Shown in pieces: positions 3,146-8,459 of a DNA stretch of 11,188 nucleotides. Origin of the DNA: Patescibacteria group bacterium (GTDB lineage Bacteria; Patescibacteriota; Saccharimonadia; Saccharimonadales; Saccharimonadaceae); assembly GCA_030917245.1 (NCBI GenBank), contig JAUPVA010000041.1, positions 1 to 11,188 of the forward strand, in the 5' to 3' direction. Made by a program: the position numbers and the translations under genes. The notes below the pieces were generated by a model. That model did no database searches, was not told where the DNA came from, and saw only the letters and a list, made by a program, of their open reading frames with translations. Position 1 is the first letter of the stretch, and each line of letters starts with the position of its first letter.

Positions 3146-3712
3146 ATGAAAAAAAGCGTGGGCTTTACAATAGTTGAACTGTTGATTGTCATAGTAGTCA
3201 TCGGCATCCTTGCCGCCATTACAGTAATAGCTTTCAGTAATATAAATGCCAAGTCACGCGACAATGAGCGATATGCCGAGGCTAAGACCATCATGAAAGC
3301 TCTCGAACTCTATAAGGCCGACAGGGGTGTCTACCCTCCAAATTCAGCTACGACCGCAGTAAACGGCCCGGGCGGAGCATGCGGTGACGGTAGCTATAGC
3401 TATAGCTTTGCTACCGACGACAGCTGGCTAAGGCCCCTTGTTTTGGGAGGGTACCTTACAAAAGCTCCCACCCCTGCGATAAACGATTGCTCTCACTATT
3501 ATCGGTATTATTACGTCAGCAATCCGACATCATATAATTGTCTTTCACGCACGAGTCGGTATTATGTCCTTGAAATCGTCGGCACTGATGCAACCTTTCT
3601 CCCCGATGATGCTTCAAGCACACTGACTTCACAGTGGCGACCGTGCTCAGGCGCAACCGCCGGCTGGGGGAATGGTAAAGTCAACTGGGCATTTTCAAAA
3701 GACGAAAATTGA
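3146..3712 (+). CDS. Type IV prepilin-like protein, four-cysteine, paralog 1
   Basis: This is a class III-signal prepilin. The short basic leader MKKSVG is followed by the processing site G6|F7 and the hydrophobic helix FTIVELLIVIVVIGILAAITV, with the conserved Glu at position +5 of the mature protein (E11). A prepilin peptidase (PilD type) would cleave and methylate it, and the helix would anchor it in the membrane and pack into a filament. The amphipathic continuation (NAKSRDNERYAEAKTI) and the YPP turn are usual for pseudopilins and pilins. The globular domain has four Cys (79, 115, 132, 167), which could form two disulfides outside the cell. The stop is TGA. It is paralogous to the next gene, sharing all four Cys, a Tyr-rich centre and a W-x-FS-x-x-EN ending. 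It could act in adhesion, DNA uptake, twitching or secretion; no pilus motor genes lie in this window to decide. Confidence 0.93.
   Translation: MKKSVGFTIVELLIVIVVIGILAAITVIAFSNINAKSRDNERYAEAKTIMKALELYKADRGVYPPNSATTAVNGPGGACGDGSYSYSFATDDSWLRPLVLGGYLTKAPTPAINDCSHYYRYYYVSNPTSYNCLSRTSRYYVLEIVGTDATFLPDDASSTLTSQWRPCSGATAGWGNGKVNWAFSKDEN
3392..3407. repeat. 16-base perfect palindrome inside pilin 1, repeated in pilin 2
   Basis: AGCTATAGCTATAGCT is its own reverse complement and encodes the Tyr-Ser repeat around residues 83-87. Fifteen of these bases recur at 4106-4120 in the paralogous pilin, including synonymous positions. It is probably coding sequence first; no site function is established. Confidence 0.4.
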
Positions 3713-3855: not shown

Positions 3856-4407
3856 ATGAAAAGAAGCGTAAGCGGGTTTACGATTGTTGAATTACTCATT
3901 GTCATCGTCGTTATCGCTATACTGGCGGCCATAACGGTAGTAGCTTTCAGCAATATCCAAGCTAAAGCTCGCGATAATGCTCGCTACTCAGACGTAAAGG
4001 CCATCTTAAAAGCACTAGAACTCTACAAGGCGAGTAACAACGGTCAATACCCCACCACCTTCGGTACAACGAATCCGACTGCTACGTGCCCAGCCGTCGG
4101 TAATGGCTATAGCTATAGCTGGGACACTGAAGGCAAATGGCTTCAAGGGCTAAAGGATAGCGGAATCATGCCAACGCCTCCCGTACCGACCCCAAACGAC
4201 TGCACGAGATATTATCAATACTATAGAGGTTCAGCTAATACATGGGGCTGCACGACGCTTACGAAGGGATGGTACCTGCTTAGGGTATACGGCGCTGAAG
4301 GTACCTTCACGCCCCAGGAATCTGCCACCTTCCGTCCCTGCCCCGAAGCAACGGTCACCGCAACCGCATCATCTGGAACTTGGGTGTTCTCAGGATACGA
4401 AAACTAA
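3856..4407 (+). CDS. Type IV prepilin-like protein, four-cysteine, paralog 2
   Basis: The prepilin leader MKRSVSG, the cleavage site G7|F8, and the helix FTIVELLIVIVVIAILAAITV with Glu at +5 (E12) mark a type IV prepilin. The N-terminal 60 residues are nearly the same as paralog 1. The globular part is diverged but keeps four Cys (78, 116, 132, 162), the NDC-x-x-YYxYY segment and the closing W-V-FS-G-Y-EN. This indicates tandem duplication followed by divergence, so the two may be major and minor subunits of one filament. At 183 aa it is a usual size. Its TAA stop overlaps the TAG stop of the convergent isomerase gene (shared bases 4405-4406), and no terminator separates them, so the two transcripts must overlap at their 3' ends. 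Confidence 0.93.
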   Translation: MKRSVSGFTIVELLIVIVVIAILAAITVVAFSNIQAKARDNARYSDVKAILKALELYKASNNGQYPTTFGTTNPTATCPAVGNGYSYSWDTEGKWLQGLKDSGIMPTPPVPTPNDCTRYYQYYRGSANTWGCTTLTKGWYLLRVYGAEGTFTPQESATFRPCPEATVTATASSGTWVFSGYEN

Positions 4408-5432
4408 CCCAGTTCAACCTTAAATCTTTCAACCAGTTCAACAGGGCTCGGATCTACCCCGTTAAGTAAGCCGAGATACAGGGTAACGAAGTCACCGAAA
4501 ATCACCAGATACACCAGTTGTTCAATTGCAGACGCTCCCACAGCCTGGACGTCAATCGACTTTGGTCGCATACCTGATAGCAACCGGTCGGTTACCTCAA
4601 ACCGCTTTTGCGTTCGAGGGTGTTCAAATGATGACAACAAATCAATCACTGCAAACGGTTTTTCGACCGGATGTGAGCTCCAGCCTATAAATTCATTGTG
4701 ATTAAACTCTGGAAGAGTACCGGTCCACGCCGTGTTTTTTGCATTTTCGTTGGCGCTAATTTTCCACTTATACGCCGCTGGCGCCATTAGTGGACCAGAG
4801 TAAATAATAGGTGTCTTTCCAACAAGTTGTAAGGCCAATTGCTTGGCTGGATTTTCGGCAGTCGGCACCGTCTTTGTCCACGATTTAACTGCCCGCTCCA
4901 ACGCTGGCACGGCTCGCTCAATTTCTTGCAAGGTATCGGCTGGGGTTAACCCGTACCCCACCAGCACCTCTATAAGTGCCCGGTAGGCATACAGTACGGC
5001 CATGCGAGGCTGAACCGCCTTGGGAATTACGACATGGTCAAAACCTTCTTGCTTTGCTCGCTCAAGCAACTTACCGCCACCGGCCATAACCACGACCTTT
5101 GCTCCTCGCTGCACAGCTTGTTCGAGACCCGACAATGACTCTTCGGTATTACCCGAATAGCTCGACACAATTACCAATGTAGACGCATCCACGAAATTCG
5201 GCAGATTGTAGTCTTTCACAATCACGAACGGAACATTCAGTACCGGGTAGGTCTTAACAAACTCAGCTTGCAACGCACTCCCGCCCATGGCGGCAAACAC
5301 AACGCTGGTAAATGGCTTGTCACTCGACACTACTGCCTTAAAGTCGTGCAACAACTGTTTCGGTGTGGCTTCGGCGAGACTCAGTGCGTCTGACCTGTCA
5401 CGTTGGGAAATTACATTCATATCATCTAGCAT
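4404..5432 (-). CDS. Bifunctional phosphoglucose/phosphomannose isomerase
   Basis: This is a cytoplasmic SIS-domain isomerase interconverting glucose-6-phosphate, or mannose-6-phosphate, with fructose-6-phosphate. The first SIS domain has AAMGGSALQ (47-55) and the phosphosugar loop SYSGNTEE (91-98). The second half carries NEN (228-230) and PEFNHNE (241-247). E229 and H245 are 16 residues apart, the same spacing as the catalytic Glu and His in archaeal PGI/PMI. The C-terminal signature LLNGVDPSPVE is also typical. The length of 342 aa is close to the family's ~300-350. The start is set at 5432 by a strong Shine-Dalgarno. The frame stays open for 140 further codons upstream, but these are Ser/Thr/Gly-rich and antisense to the neighbouring gene. 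The enzyme would supply a glycolytic entry step and link to the mannose-type cupin at 263-1003. Dual specificity is inferred from the family. Confidence 0.92.
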   Translation of the reverse strand: MLDDMNVISQRDRSDALSLAEATPKQLLHDFKAVVSSDKPFTSVVFAAMGGSALQAEFVKTYPVLNVPFVIVKDYNLPNFVDASTLVIVSSYSGNTEESLSGLEQAVQRGAKVVVMAGGGKLLERAKQEGFDHVVIPKAVQPRMAVLYAYRALIEVLVGYGLTPADTLQEIERAVPALERAVKSWTKTVPTAENPAKQLALQLVGKTPIIYSGPLMAPAAYKWKISANENAKNTAWTGTLPEFNHNEFIGWSSHPVEKPFAVIDLLSSFEHPRTQKRFEVTDRLLSGMRPKSIDVQAVGASAIEQLVYLVIFGDFVTLYLGLLNGVDPSPVELVERFKVELG

Positions 5433-5438
5433 CGGTTT

Positions 5439-5447
5439 CTCCTCCTT
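5439..5447 (-). promoter_or_regulatory. Shine-Dalgarno that sets the isomerase start
   Basis: AAGGAGGAG on the minus strand lies six bases before the ATG at 5432, a near-perfect ribosome-binding site. It favours this start over the longer in-frame extension. A possible -10 (TATCAT, 5466-5471, minus) lies upstream, but no convincing -35 is seen. Confidence 0.75.
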
Positions 5448-5514
5448 GCGAGTATCTCTGTCAATATGATACAGTAATAACAACTTGAAAGCATAATCAA
5501 TATCAGAGGTGGGC

Positions 5515-6003
5515 ATGGCAACTATTGAACCGTTAAACGACACGCAACAACCAATCAGTGACGACCAAGAACTTGCGAAAGTACTAGCAGGCGTCGACTT
5601 GCAGGCAGGTGCTACTGCGGACGCGTCCGTCTCTCCTGCACTTCCACCGGCTGATGACACCCCAGTCACCGACCCAACTACACAAGAACTGCCCGAAGTT
5701 ACCGTCCCGCCAGTAGTCGAAACTCCGGTCATGCCAGAACCAACATTCTCAACCGGTTCCGACGATCTAAGCACGGTCAAACAAGAAGCCTTAACAGAAC
5801 TCCGTCCACTTGTTGATAAGCTCAACATCCCGGCTGAAGAGAAGTTCGACACTTATCTCCTCCTACTTCGTTCGACCGATGACAAGTCACTTATCGAACC
5901 CGCGCACGAGACCGCTAAATTAATCGAAGACGAATCGCGTCGTGCCCAGGCATTACTCGATATCATCAAAGAAATCGATTTCTTAAGCGCCGCCAAGCAA
6001 TAA
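5515..6003 (+). CDS. Acidic protein of unknown function with disordered N-terminus and helical C-terminal domain
   Basis: I do not recognise a named family. The 162-aa product has two parts. Residues 1-85 are rich in Pro, Thr, Asp, Glu and Val (PALPPADDTPVTDP, LPEVTVPPVVETPVMPEP) and should be disordered. Residues 86-162 are predicted to be all-helical and amphipathic (ELRPLVDKLNIPAEEKFDTYLLLLRSTDD, then ETAKLIEDESRRAQALLDIIKEIDFL), like a small helical adaptor or interaction domain. There is no signal peptide or membrane segment, so it is probably cytoplasmic. The start at the ATG 5515 is preferred because AGAGGTGG lies just before it; an in-frame GTG at 5509 would add two residues. It is divergent from the isomerase across 82 bases and directly precedes the helicase-sigma gene, which has its own promoter, so a shared function is only a possibility. 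Confidence 0.85.
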   Translation: MATIEPLNDTQQPISDDQELAKVLAGVDLQAGATADASVSPALPPADDTPVTDPTTQELPEVTVPPVVETPVMPEPTFSTGSDDLSTVKQEALTELRPLVDKLNIPAEEKFDTYLLLLRSTDDKSLIEPAHETAKLIEDESRRAQALLDIIKEIDFLSAAKQ

Positions 6004-6026
6004 CATTGCTCACCCCTAGACTTCTA

Positions 6027-6055
6027 TTGACATTTTAGCTATTTTTTGTTATAGT
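6027..6055 (+). promoter_or_regulatory. Near-consensus sigma-70 promoter of the helicase-sigma gene, predicted leaderless
   Basis: A perfect -35 TTGACA (6027-6032), a 17-base spacer and TATAGT (6050-6055). The ATG at 6063 begins eight bases after the -10 ends, where transcription should start. The seven bases between are A followed by six T, with no Shine-Dalgarno. This is the strongest case for a leaderless mRNA in the window. Confidence 0.85.
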
Positions 6056-6062
6056 ATTTTTT

Positions 6063-8378
6063 ATGTCTTCAGAACGACATTCTCCGGAATCTGTACTTAG
6101 TCCTGATTACGCCTTTGCAGGCAGCCTACAGGCGACGTTAAATAATATTCACAGTCGTGATTTCTCGCTTGATGTTCAACAACTAGAAGCTCTTGAAGCA
6201 ATCGGCCATGCGCTCGTAACCGGCACAAAATCGGGATACATCGAAATGGCCACAAGCACCGGCAAAACAACCGTAGAGGCACTCCTAGCTGAGGCAGCTG
6301 TTCGTGCTGGTAAACGCGTACTCCTTCTAGCGCCAACTATCCCCATCGCTCGTCAAATTGTCGGCAAAAATAATGAAACTCCCACGGGCTTAAGACGATT
6401 TGCTCATCTTCCCGACGGCACGTCTGTTCATTCTCACTTCGGCTCCTCGACTGGCAATGAATCTGCTGACATTGTAGTCACAACCTATCCAGGTTTACTC
6501 AATGATGCCAAACGTGGACACCAAACATTAGGTCAGTTCGACGTGGCTATTGCCGATGAATGTCACCGCAGCCTCGGCGAACAAACTTCTCAGGTAATAC
6601 GCACTGCATTCCCCGATGCATTTAAACTTGGCCTTTCAGCAACCCCTGATTACGCCATTGACCGTATGTCAAATGAGGTATTTGACCAGTCCCTGTACGA
6701 CTTTTCACTTATTCAAGCAATCGAGACTGGTAAGACCGCTCCTGTTCGGACACTTGTGTACGAGACGAATGAATCTCTACAATTAACCGATCCGCGCAGA
6801 GAATTTACCGATCGTGAACTCGCTCCTCTTATTGAAAATATGCAGCGCAACAATACCGCGCTAGAACTTTCACGAGCTCTTGTCGAAGAAGGACGCCAAG
6901 GAATAATCGCCTGTGTACCAGGCCAGAGTAACTTACACGCCCGCTTATTAGCCGACTTACTTAAAACAAACGGGGTTAAAGCCGCCGCTGTAGGCGCACA
7001 TTTGTCGCCCGAAGATCATGCTCTTAAGCTCAAAATGTTTGATGCTGGCGTATTCGATGTCCTCACGTTCACAAAGTCGCTCGAGGAGGGTTGGGATAGT
7101 GACAAGGCAAGTTTTGCAATTAATTTATCTCCGACAACGTCCCCGGTTCGCACAAAGCAACTATTAGGTCGCGTGTTGCGCAAGAAGCCAAGCGGTATCG
7201 AAAGCATTTACGTTGACTTCATTGATGAAAAAAGCGGCCTTTCGAAGTCCCAGTACACAGCCATGCACGCACTTGATCTTGACTATATTGACTTTGATCG
7301 TGTGCTCGGCCGCCACGGGGGCAGCCAGGGGCCCTACCGCCCACACCCAGGAATGCTACACTTCCTCAATCCGAAGCTACTTGAGAGATTGAAGAAATCA
7401 CAAGGGAAGCTGCTTCAAGATGTAACCGTAGGGCAGCAAATAGACCCTTTGGTTAAACTATGGGAAACAACCCTCGCCGACGAAGGTCTACCCGCCGAGC
7501 TGAACGATAATTTTGTGTTGCCACCACGATTGGAAAAACGCGTTAGTCGCGCCTATACACAATTCGTTCGCGACAACCAGACAGAGCCGACCGTTGACGA
7601 CCTAATTGAAATTATGGGTACAGTAAGTAATCCTGAACGCATCGCACTAGGTAAATTTGCTCTACGTGTCGAAATGACACCAAACCATCAATGGGATCTT
7701 GAAGACGTTCCAGCCAGTGACGACTTAAGTGACCAGACTCAAATTGCAGAAAAAAATGCGCTGTATGCGCAACTAAATGCAGTGACAAACACGCTGAGCG
7801 AACGAGAAGCAGGCGTTATTGATAAACGTTTTGGTTTAACCAATGGCGAACCAATGGACCTGGATAAAATAGGAAAAGAGTATGGTGTCACTAGAGAGCA
7901 CATCCGTCAGATTGAATCTAAGTCAATGTCAAAGTTACGGCATCCGTCTCGCTCCGAAGTACTTAAAGATTACCTCGATATTTCAGCACCTTACGGTCAC
8001 ATGCGTGCCAGCGATTCACGACCTGAGGTATCTGTTAAGATTCCTATGGCAAAATTATTTGATTATATTGATTCTCAGTTAGCTAATAGCAGCGAAACCG
8101 GTGCCCGAGAAATTTACAACTCACTGGTCGCACTTGGAATTGATGAGTTTGCCGATCTAATCGACACGAGTACGGATAATCTCAAAACACGCCTACCTCA
8201 AGTGAAGGTACAGCGAATCAATATTCTTGATTCGTACATTGAAGCCGCGGACACTCAGCTACATACCCAGCGCGCCCGTTCCCGACCTGACGAAACATCT
8301 ATTGCTACCATTGAGCGGCGCCGAAAAAATCTTACGCTTGCACGCGAGATAATTACGCGTATAAAATTCGCCCAGTAG
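6063..8378 (+). CDS. SF2 DECH-box helicase fused to sigma-70 region 3/4-like domain
   Basis: This is a 771-aa multidomain protein. Residues ~35-375 form a superfamily 2 helicase of the ResIII/DEAD-DEAH type: motif I ATSTGKTT (63-70), Ia APTIPIARQ (90-98), motif II DECH (165-168), motif III LSATP (191-195), motif V-like TKSLEEGWD (337-345) and motif VI QLLGRVLRK (366-374). Residues ~489-550 resemble sigma-70 region 3 (RVSRAYTQFVRDNQTEPTVDDL). Residues ~566-638 are a clear sigma-70 region 4, with SEREAGVIDKRFGL, the helix-turn-helix IGKEYGVTREHIRQIESK, and KLRHPSRSEVL, which matches E. coli RpoD. R611, E612, R615 and Q616 align with RpoD R584, E585, R588 and Q589, the -35 readers. Residues ~680-730 (AREIYNSLVALGIDEFADLI) look like a helix-hairpin-helix or alpha-CTD-like domain; this is less sure. 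No sigma region 2 is seen, so it cannot melt a -10 as a sigma factor would. Inference: an ATP-driven remodeller targeted to promoters or to the RNA polymerase beta flap. Confidence 0.9.
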   Translation: MSSERHSPESVLSPDYAFAGSLQATLNNIHSRDFSLDVQQLEALEAIGHALVTGTKSGYIEMATSTGKTTVEALLAEAAVRAGKRVLLLAPTIPIARQIVGKNNETPTGLRRFAHLPDGTSVHSHFGSSTGNESADIVVTTYPGLLNDAKRGHQTLGQFDVAIADECHRSLGEQTSQVIRTAFPDAFKLGLSATPDYAIDRMSNEVFDQSLYDFSLIQAIETGKTAPVRTLVYETNESLQLTDPRREFTDRELAPLIENMQRNNTALELSRALVEEGRQGIIACVPGQSNLHARLLADLLKTNGVKAAAVGAHLSPEDHALKLKMFDAGVFDVLTFTKSLEEGWDSDKASFAINLSPTTSPVRTKQLLGRVLRKKPSGIESIYVDFIDEKSGLSKSQYTAMHALDLDYIDFDRVLGRHGGSQGPYRPHPGMLHFLNPKLLERLKKSQGKLLQDVTVGQQIDPLVKLWETTLADEGLPAELNDNFVLPPRLEKRVSRAYTQFVRDNQTEPTVDDLIEIMGTVSNPERIALGKFALRVEMTPNHQWDLEDVPASDDLSDQTQIAEKNALYAQLNAVTNTLSEREAGVIDKRFGLTNGEPMDLDKIGKEYGVTREHIRQIESKSMSKLRHPSRSEVLKDYLDISAPYGHMRASDSRPEVSVKIPMAKLFDYIDSQLANSSETGAREIYNSLVALGIDEFADLIDTSTDNLKTRLPQVKVQRINILDSYIEAADTQLHTQRARSRPDETSIATIERRRKNLTLAREIITRIKFAQ

Positions 8379-8400
8379 TGCGCTACAGTCGTAAGTAGCC

Positions 8401-8436
8401 TTAAAAAATAGAGTCGGCATCGTAGCCGACTCTATT
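8401..8436 (-). terminator. Intrinsic terminator of the groES-groEL operon
   Basis: A 12-base-pair stem (8407-8418 with 8425-8436, core GAGTCGGC/GCCGACTC) encloses a six-base loop. On the minus strand it is followed at once by a run of six T (8408-8403), 23 bases after the groEL stop. On the plus strand the hairpin is not followed by T-rich sequence, so it would be a weak terminator for the helicase-sigma gene. Confidence 0.92.
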
Positions 8437-8459
8437 AGTCTGAAGTACGGTGATGATTT

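Follow-up and report, generated by a model that had tools for sequence, protein, structure and literature searches.

What use does a bacterium have for a protein that joins a helicase of superfamily 2 (SF2) to the tail of a primary sigma factor, and is such a protein real? The question is raised by the stretch of DNA analysed here (the window), 11,188 nucleotides of contig JAUPVA010000041.1 from a Saccharimonadaceae genome (GCA_030917245.1), in which a gene at 6063..8378 on the plus strand encodes a 771-residue fusion of an SF2 helicase with regions 3 and 4 of SigA, as seen from the listing of open reading frames (ORFs), Pfam and a sequence search of the PDB. The fusion is real and conserved, its helicase motifs are intact, its sigma part is of actinobacterial type, it lies in a slot for variable cargo and the genome encodes a separate RpoD. 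As to its function, the explanation tentatively favoured, at a little below even probability, is that it may be an ATP-driven DNA translocase of the RadD/XPB class, accessory and acting on its own, which captured an actinobacterial-type SigA tail, from region 3.1 to the end, and is thereby addressed to promoter-like DNA. Genomes, contigs, loci and proteins are cited below by G, C, L and P numbers.

The frame at 6063-8378 runs through 771 codons with zero internal stops, as the preliminary description of the sequence had stated, and the intact helicase motifs which it placed at residues 63-374 were borne out by Pfam. ResIII was found at residues 36-196 (2.4e-22; 6168..6650, plus strand), DEAD at 50-198 and Helicase_C at 275-374 (4.3e-9; 6885..7184, plus strand), each above its curated cut-off. 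Motif alignment places Walker A (G67, K68, T69) and the DExH motif (DECH, 165-168) in the first domain and motif VI (Q366, G369, R370, R373) in Helicase_C. With these motifs in two RecA-like domains the protein belongs to SF2, and its motor is, as judged from the motifs, intact. The hidden Markov model search that had been proposed for residues 1-771 thus gave significant matches to ResIII, Helicase_C and also Sigma70_r4 (3e-13). Behind the sigma part follows a C-terminal extension of 131 residues (7983..8375, plus strand), which is poorly conserved in the family alignment, mostly helical in the structure model and matches no Pfam family above cut-off. A reading of this C-terminus as similar to the C-terminal domain of the RNA polymerase alpha subunit was rejected, as there was no PDB sequence match, no Pfam family above cut-off and only long model helices of low confidence.

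Region 4 of SigA is found at residues 567-640 (7761..7982, plus strand) by Pfam, by a PDB match and by hhalign (probability 100). Sigma70_r4 (PF04545) covers residues 577-627 with 49.5 bits against a cut-off of 24.1, and the top PDB sequence matches of the whole fusion are actinobacterial SigA/HrdB proteins over residues 492-639 (E 4e-28). The recognition helix, residues 611-625 (7893..7937, plus strand), is placed by alignment and an AlphaFold2 (AF2) model. In E. coli numbering, R611, E612, R615 and Q616 align with R584, E585, R588 and Q589, H613 with R586 and S623 with R596; in E. coli, R584, E585, R586, R588 and Q589 contact the -35 element. The alignments thus agree with the region 4 residues listed at the outset, including the replacement of R586 by His and of R596 by Ser. 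The Ser is not a sign of decay, since the actinobacterial SigA compared (KTMSKLRHPSRS) has the same residue.

The preliminary description had also claimed region 3, and here the evidence is confined to the level of profiles. Searches with the single sequence gave only an unrelated FlgE (E 1.5) and no family in Pfam. The family profile of residues 489-566, built from 61 of 65 rows with four dropped, aligned in register with a SigA region 3 profile (hhalign probability 95.1, E 3.4e-8), while negative-control profiles of the linker (400-477) and the C-terminus (646-771) reached probabilities of 4.6 and 0.1 against SigA. The region 3-like helices lie in residues 491-542 (7533..7688, plus strand), where the AF2 model has helices at 488-505, 511-518 and 523-532. 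Region 2, which serves core binding and -10 melting, is absent among the seven Pfam families listed for the fusion at E<=1, as had been claimed. Taken together, the profile match of region 3, the presence of region 4 and the absence of region 2 indicate that what was fused is the end portion of a SigA, beginning at about region 3.1 and reaching its last residues, and that without region 2 the fusion is not a sigma factor.

The sigma segment behind the helicase is more than a chance similarity. As the matches of another protein search (205 in all) could share words with region 4, relatives were searched with words from residues 1-470 only, a query free of sigma bias, and the 7993 candidates with most shared words were scored. 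This gave 65 proteins at E<=1e-30, and PF04545 is present in 59 of them, the exceptions being P0024, P0025, P0026, P0031, P0124 and P0127. The motor residues are nearly invariant (Walker A and DExH in 65/65, motif VI in 64/65). On average, two members of the family are 56% identical over the helicase, 36% over region 4, 20% over region 3 and, as computed on 1020 of 2080 pairs, 14% over the C-terminus. Within region 4 the equivalents of R586 (58/65), Q589 (53/65), R554 and R603 (52/65 each) and R588 (48/65) are kept, those of R584 (35/65) and E585 (39/65) less so. Beyond the recognition helix there is an RHPSR block, with R599 kept in 50, H in 40, P in 41 and R603 in 52 of the 65 proteins.

The question whether the fusion is conserved across Saccharibacteria has a divided answer: region 4 is retained in most relatives of the helicase, but the fusion is rare and patchy in Saccharimonadales. 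The helicase half was found in 6 of 392 genomes drawn from the order (G000, G006, G397, G208, G064 and G111), in 3 of 394 genomes of the family and in 2 of 379 in the draw from the phylum. Region 4 was detected at Pfam level in three of the six (G000, G006 and G208). The frame in G397, 744 residues long and ended by the contig edge, is identical to P0026 at 740 positions, and PF04545 was found neither in P0026 nor on the G397 helicase contig. There was no recognisable region 4 in the helicases of G064 and G111, where sub-cut-off matches of helix-turn-helix (HTH) type are all that follows the core, nor in the more distant ones of G035, G059 and G021. The latter three (L012, L013, L014) show a weak match to PF25716, 'Late promoter-activating protein', at about residues 572-616 (E 0.0017-0.054, 14-19 bits against a cut-off of 35). 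A search of 100 relatives with the whole protein listed mostly matches on the sigma part of other frames; fusions among the matches listed were those of G000 and G006, and one of a different kind in G071. Among 80 of 149 confirmed viral loci the best segment is at most 34% identical and all matches fall within residues 7-418, i.e., the helicase part. A search with the sigma part of 60 of 158 plasmid records and all 29 phage records gave no helicase name under any match, the rows being annotated sigma factors or sigma-like HTH proteins, or unannotated. The scan of genome contigs gave two loci only.

The genome of the window has in addition a full, separate RpoD of 356 residues, in which the HPSR block retained by the fusion is missing. 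Near-full-length relatives of this RpoD (59-83% identity) are present in G006, G397, G071, G208 and G498. The RpoD shares a contig (C19) with a second sigma factor of 432 residues, and a separate region 4 protein of 351 residues is also encoded (L001, L004, L003). No rpoB was found in the incomplete assembly of the window's genome.

Where, then, does the sigma part come from? It appears to be closest to actinobacterial SigA and not to the organism's own RpoD, and the evidence for this is good but not final. Region 4 of the fusions is on average 72% identical to actinobacterial SigA and 46% to the own RpoD; this comparison and the subsampling below used 54 of the 63 proteins plus L127 and L130, nine being left out as degenerate or outside the list (P0010, P0024, P0025, P0026, P0031, P0051, P0053, P0054 and P0063). 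Among the 120 of 205 matches listed, 57 are non-fusion proteins (P0064-P0120), all with sigma-factor domains, and every organism stated for them is actinobacterial. Against 19 actinobacterial references, 24 from the own order and 8 others, the last only from plasmid and phage records, an actinobacterial SigA scored best for 54 of the 65 fusions. This is not due to the number of references, as the outcome held when six references were drawn at random for each group: a mean of 46.1 out of 56 fusions (range 42-50) were then nearest to actinobacterial SigA; as a control, 0.1 of 24 own RpoDs were nearer to actinobacterial than to other references. In a tree of 79 rows the fusions without L130 (the G071 locus) and the actinobacterial SigAs form one side of a branch (99/95.9). 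Duplication and fusion of the own RpoD, with fusions and RpoDs of the own order as one clade, was rejected with moderate strength (approximately unbiased (AU) test, p=0.033). A single clade of all fusions, L130 included, was not rejected (AU p=0.365) in this tree, the smaller one, in which family A, that of the window, prevails (26 fusion rows; A1 comprises 36 of the 63 proteins). The trees were built from 154 and 77 columns; their branches are long and the bootstraps unsettled, and it is because of the long branches that the origin cannot be called final.

A second family of fusions, B, bears on the same question. The G071 protein (L130:7001-9298), 765 residues long, is 26% identical to the window protein over the helicase, and a search led by it gave 48 proteins (P0129-P0176), of which 42 carry PF04545 and one is from Candidatus Curtissbacteria. 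Region 4 of family B is nearest to 'other' references in 28 of the 48, to the own order in 13 (plus one nearest to a second own sigma factor) and to actinobacterial references in 6. One shared origin of region 4 in the two families was rejected (AU p=0.0009, 12 rows of family A and 25 of the 48 of family B), and two family B proteins, P0147 and P0173, were placed with the actinobacterial and family A group (93/100, 77 columns). From this rejection and placement it follows that at least two separate events attached region 4 to helicases of this kind, and that it was perhaps exchanged as well. In the draw from the phylum the G071 protein has a relative at E<=1e-40 in 2 of 379 genomes (G498 and G458), over the helicase part only, and there was no PF04545 match on those contigs. 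Two other unusual proteins were noted: in G458 (C18; L186:934-3132) one of 732 residues that joins a complete sigma-70 factor (regions 1.2-4) to a TsaE domain (PF02367, 6e-20), and in G208 (C4; L187:106-2619) one of 837 residues whose N-terminal half, by eye, resembles a sigma factor and whose long C-terminal part looks repetitive.

The genomic position of the fusion bears on its role. The gene fills a slot of 2456 bp (6004..8459) between groEL and ORF164 (5509..6003, plus strand), a core Saccharibacterial gene which lies upstream of the slot, outside the fusion, and was found in 56 of 61 genomes at E<=0.001. The slot was compared in 9 of the 14 genus genomes G000-G013 (L161-L165, L167 and L168 among the loci), and the gene order groES-groEL-slot-ORF164-PGI-ABC is kept across them; the piece from G009 stops within the ABC permease, and G028, of another genus, has no groEL beside ORF164. 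The content of the slot is variable: the fusion in G000 and G006, 103 bp and thus nothing in G009, other frames in G007 (500 residues), G013 (542), G004 (135), G010 (218) and G001 (217), and in G011 a frame of 235 residues with a HATPase frame of 602 at a GC content of 0.63. As the content differs from species to species, the fusion is best regarded as accessory cargo. The gene is preceded by a promoter-like site of the sigma-70 type at 6027..6055 (plus strand), TTGACA-17-TATAGT with TG before the -10 and 11 of 12 consensus bases, whose -10 ends 7 nt before the ATG; it is a consensus match and not proof of a promoter, with five such sites in the region against 4.0 expected. The -10 hexamer lies 6-9 nt before the ATG in four of five fusion loci scored, the scorer having chosen another pair for G397. 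Such closeness to the start (window 6027-6062; L126, L127, L130) suggests that the mRNAs may be leaderless. Between fusion and groEL, inspection shows a terminator-like 12-bp inverted repeat with a 6-base loop (8407..8436) that is missing from the listed terminator-like sites. On the far side of ORF164 the PGI frame (4404-5852, minus strand) has a listed start seemingly about 143 codons early, antisense to ORF164, and an internal ATG with a GGAGG-like site is its likely true start. Two adjacent genes resembling type IV pilins (N_methyl, Pfam) lie at 3146-3712 and 3856-4407.

How would such an enzyme work? On the tentative explanation given above, region 4 would bring the enzyme to double-stranded DNA of promoter (-35) type. 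It would hold on largely by contacts to the backbone, aided by a recognition helix that has come to differ in specificity from one relative to another, and the motor would then move along or strip the DNA and so push off bound proteins, RNA polymerase among them. As the gene is rare, exchangeable and found in a cargo slot, its most likely use would be in defence or competition, e.g., by acting on promoters of incoming DNA, and not in housekeeping transcription. Several observations weigh against this. The other cargo of the slot is not recognisably defensive (Pfam and PADLOC on six frames, the G001 frame outside the set). When PADLOC was applied to the six neighbours in the window and to four frames next to the G208 fusion, the ABC transporter pair alone was matched, by general models (ABC-type ATPase, LolE-like), so that nothing points to a defence island. 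The PADLOC matches to the fusions themselves concern SF2 or sigma parts only. The six of 65 family members without PF04545 imply that the helicase can do without region 4. The full RE.RQ set is present in only 27 of 65, and in the window protein a His stands in for R586, which among the others is so only in P0025. The variation of these base-specific residues, with the R586 and Q589 equivalents staying, the fast drift of region 3 and the C-terminus relative to the helicase and region 4, and the helicases without region 4 (G064, G111, G035, G059, G021) would also fit region 4 being a non-specific HTH clamp on a RadD-like helicase for repair or against mobile elements, with no role at promoters or polymerase. 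We consider this generic tail rather unlikely, though it is the most serious competitor: out of many possible HTHs, two helicase families separately acquired region 4, and the RHPSR block beyond the recognition helix is kept.

The preliminary description had proposed the logic of a promoter-opening factor, as XPB in TFIIH, or of a competitor of RpoD at the beta flap. Such action on the own RNA polymerase, with region 4 rivalling RpoD at the flap or the -35 and the motor opening promoters or stripping polymerase, is possible in view of the similarity of the core at XPB level and of the RpoD type of region 4, and the perfect TTGACA in the gene's own promoter-like site would allow autoregulation. 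It is however not favoured, and we hold it improbable, because the tail is actinobacterial-like and not of the own RpoD type, with an HPSR block missing from that RpoD, and because most relatives lack the gene, which is rare and patchy, unlike a core transcription factor. Still somewhat less probable is a role of the protein as an effector delivered into an actinobacterial host, where the SigA-like tail would target the RNA polymerase or the promoters of the host while the motor disturbed its transcription. The grouping of the sigma part with actinobacterial SigA would fit this, as would the reports that the hosts of isolated TM7 are all Actinobacteria (PMC9040727, 2022) and that a type IV secretion system is essential for epibiotic growth in Saccharimonadia (PMC12102498). 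On the other hand the gene is absent from most relatives searched, in G071, of the same order, the family B fusion has a region 4 of non-actinobacterial type, and a single old transfer followed by drift accounts for the similarity. The fragmented assembly of the window's genome (97 contigs, 77.8% complete) might raise the suspicion of a chimera or of chance similarity; a chimera is refuted by the same fusion at the identical locus in the single-contig G006, and with PF04545 in 59 of 65 related proteins we regard both as having a negligible probability.

Many Patescibacteria live on other bacteria. It is tempting to speculate, although we think it improbable, that they repeatedly took the end of SigA which binds promoter and polymerase from other phyla, Saccharibacteria taking theirs from their hosts' phylum, and joined it to ATP-driven translocases. 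The motor would then be aimed at promoters or RNA polymerase of the host type, whether inside the host or on DNA that derives from the host or from phages. If the favoured explanation is true, an SF2 motor carrying sigma regions 3 and 4 would represent a novel means of aiming a DNA translocase at promoters. With a sigma source in the hosts' phylum, and with region 4 acquired independently by two helicase families, domain capture in these episymbionts becomes a case open to testing, one that bears on their handling of foreign DNA or on the transcription of their hosts.

Literature searches for a helicase with a sigma tail found no description of this architecture among the papers inspected, in line with the initial remark that no described system of this design was known to its author. 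The nearest known proteins each share a part with the fusion. With RadD/YejH it shares the class of motor, but it scores 31.7 against an NCBIfam equivalog cut-off of 720, and RadD to our knowledge has no sigma tail. Similarity to XPB/Ssl2 of TFIIH is at the level of XPB and was compared for the core alone; XPB/Ssl2 has damage-recognition and thumb domains and a RED motif, and we know of no sigma-like domain in it. The fusion differs from Mfd in having no CarD/TRCF polymerase-interaction domain among its Pfam families at E<=1, and from the R subunits of type I and III restriction enzymes in having no nuclease domain (Pfam); modification or specificity partners were not found among the six window frames (Pfam) or six neighbouring frames (PADLOC). 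MzaA of the anti-phage system MZA shares the similarity to sigma regions 3-4 (91.7 bits over residues 494-640), only the sigma part matching, far below the equivalog cut-off of 800, and the Mza models had no match among the six neighbouring window frames (PADLOC). The group 1 sigma factor SigA/HrdB of actinobacteria is about 72% identical in region 4, in register in region 3 at profile level and matched to its very end, but in the fusion no region 2 was found, the segment sits behind a helicase and 131 residues follow it. The ATPase of BrxL is of the AAA+/Lon-like kind. BrxL thus differs in its motor, and in having an N-terminal tri-helical HTH instead of a SigA tail. It nevertheless resembles the fusion in placing a sigma-type HTH on an ATPase, as in this defence protein of BREX an N-terminal sigma-HTH-like domain is described (PMC12839542).
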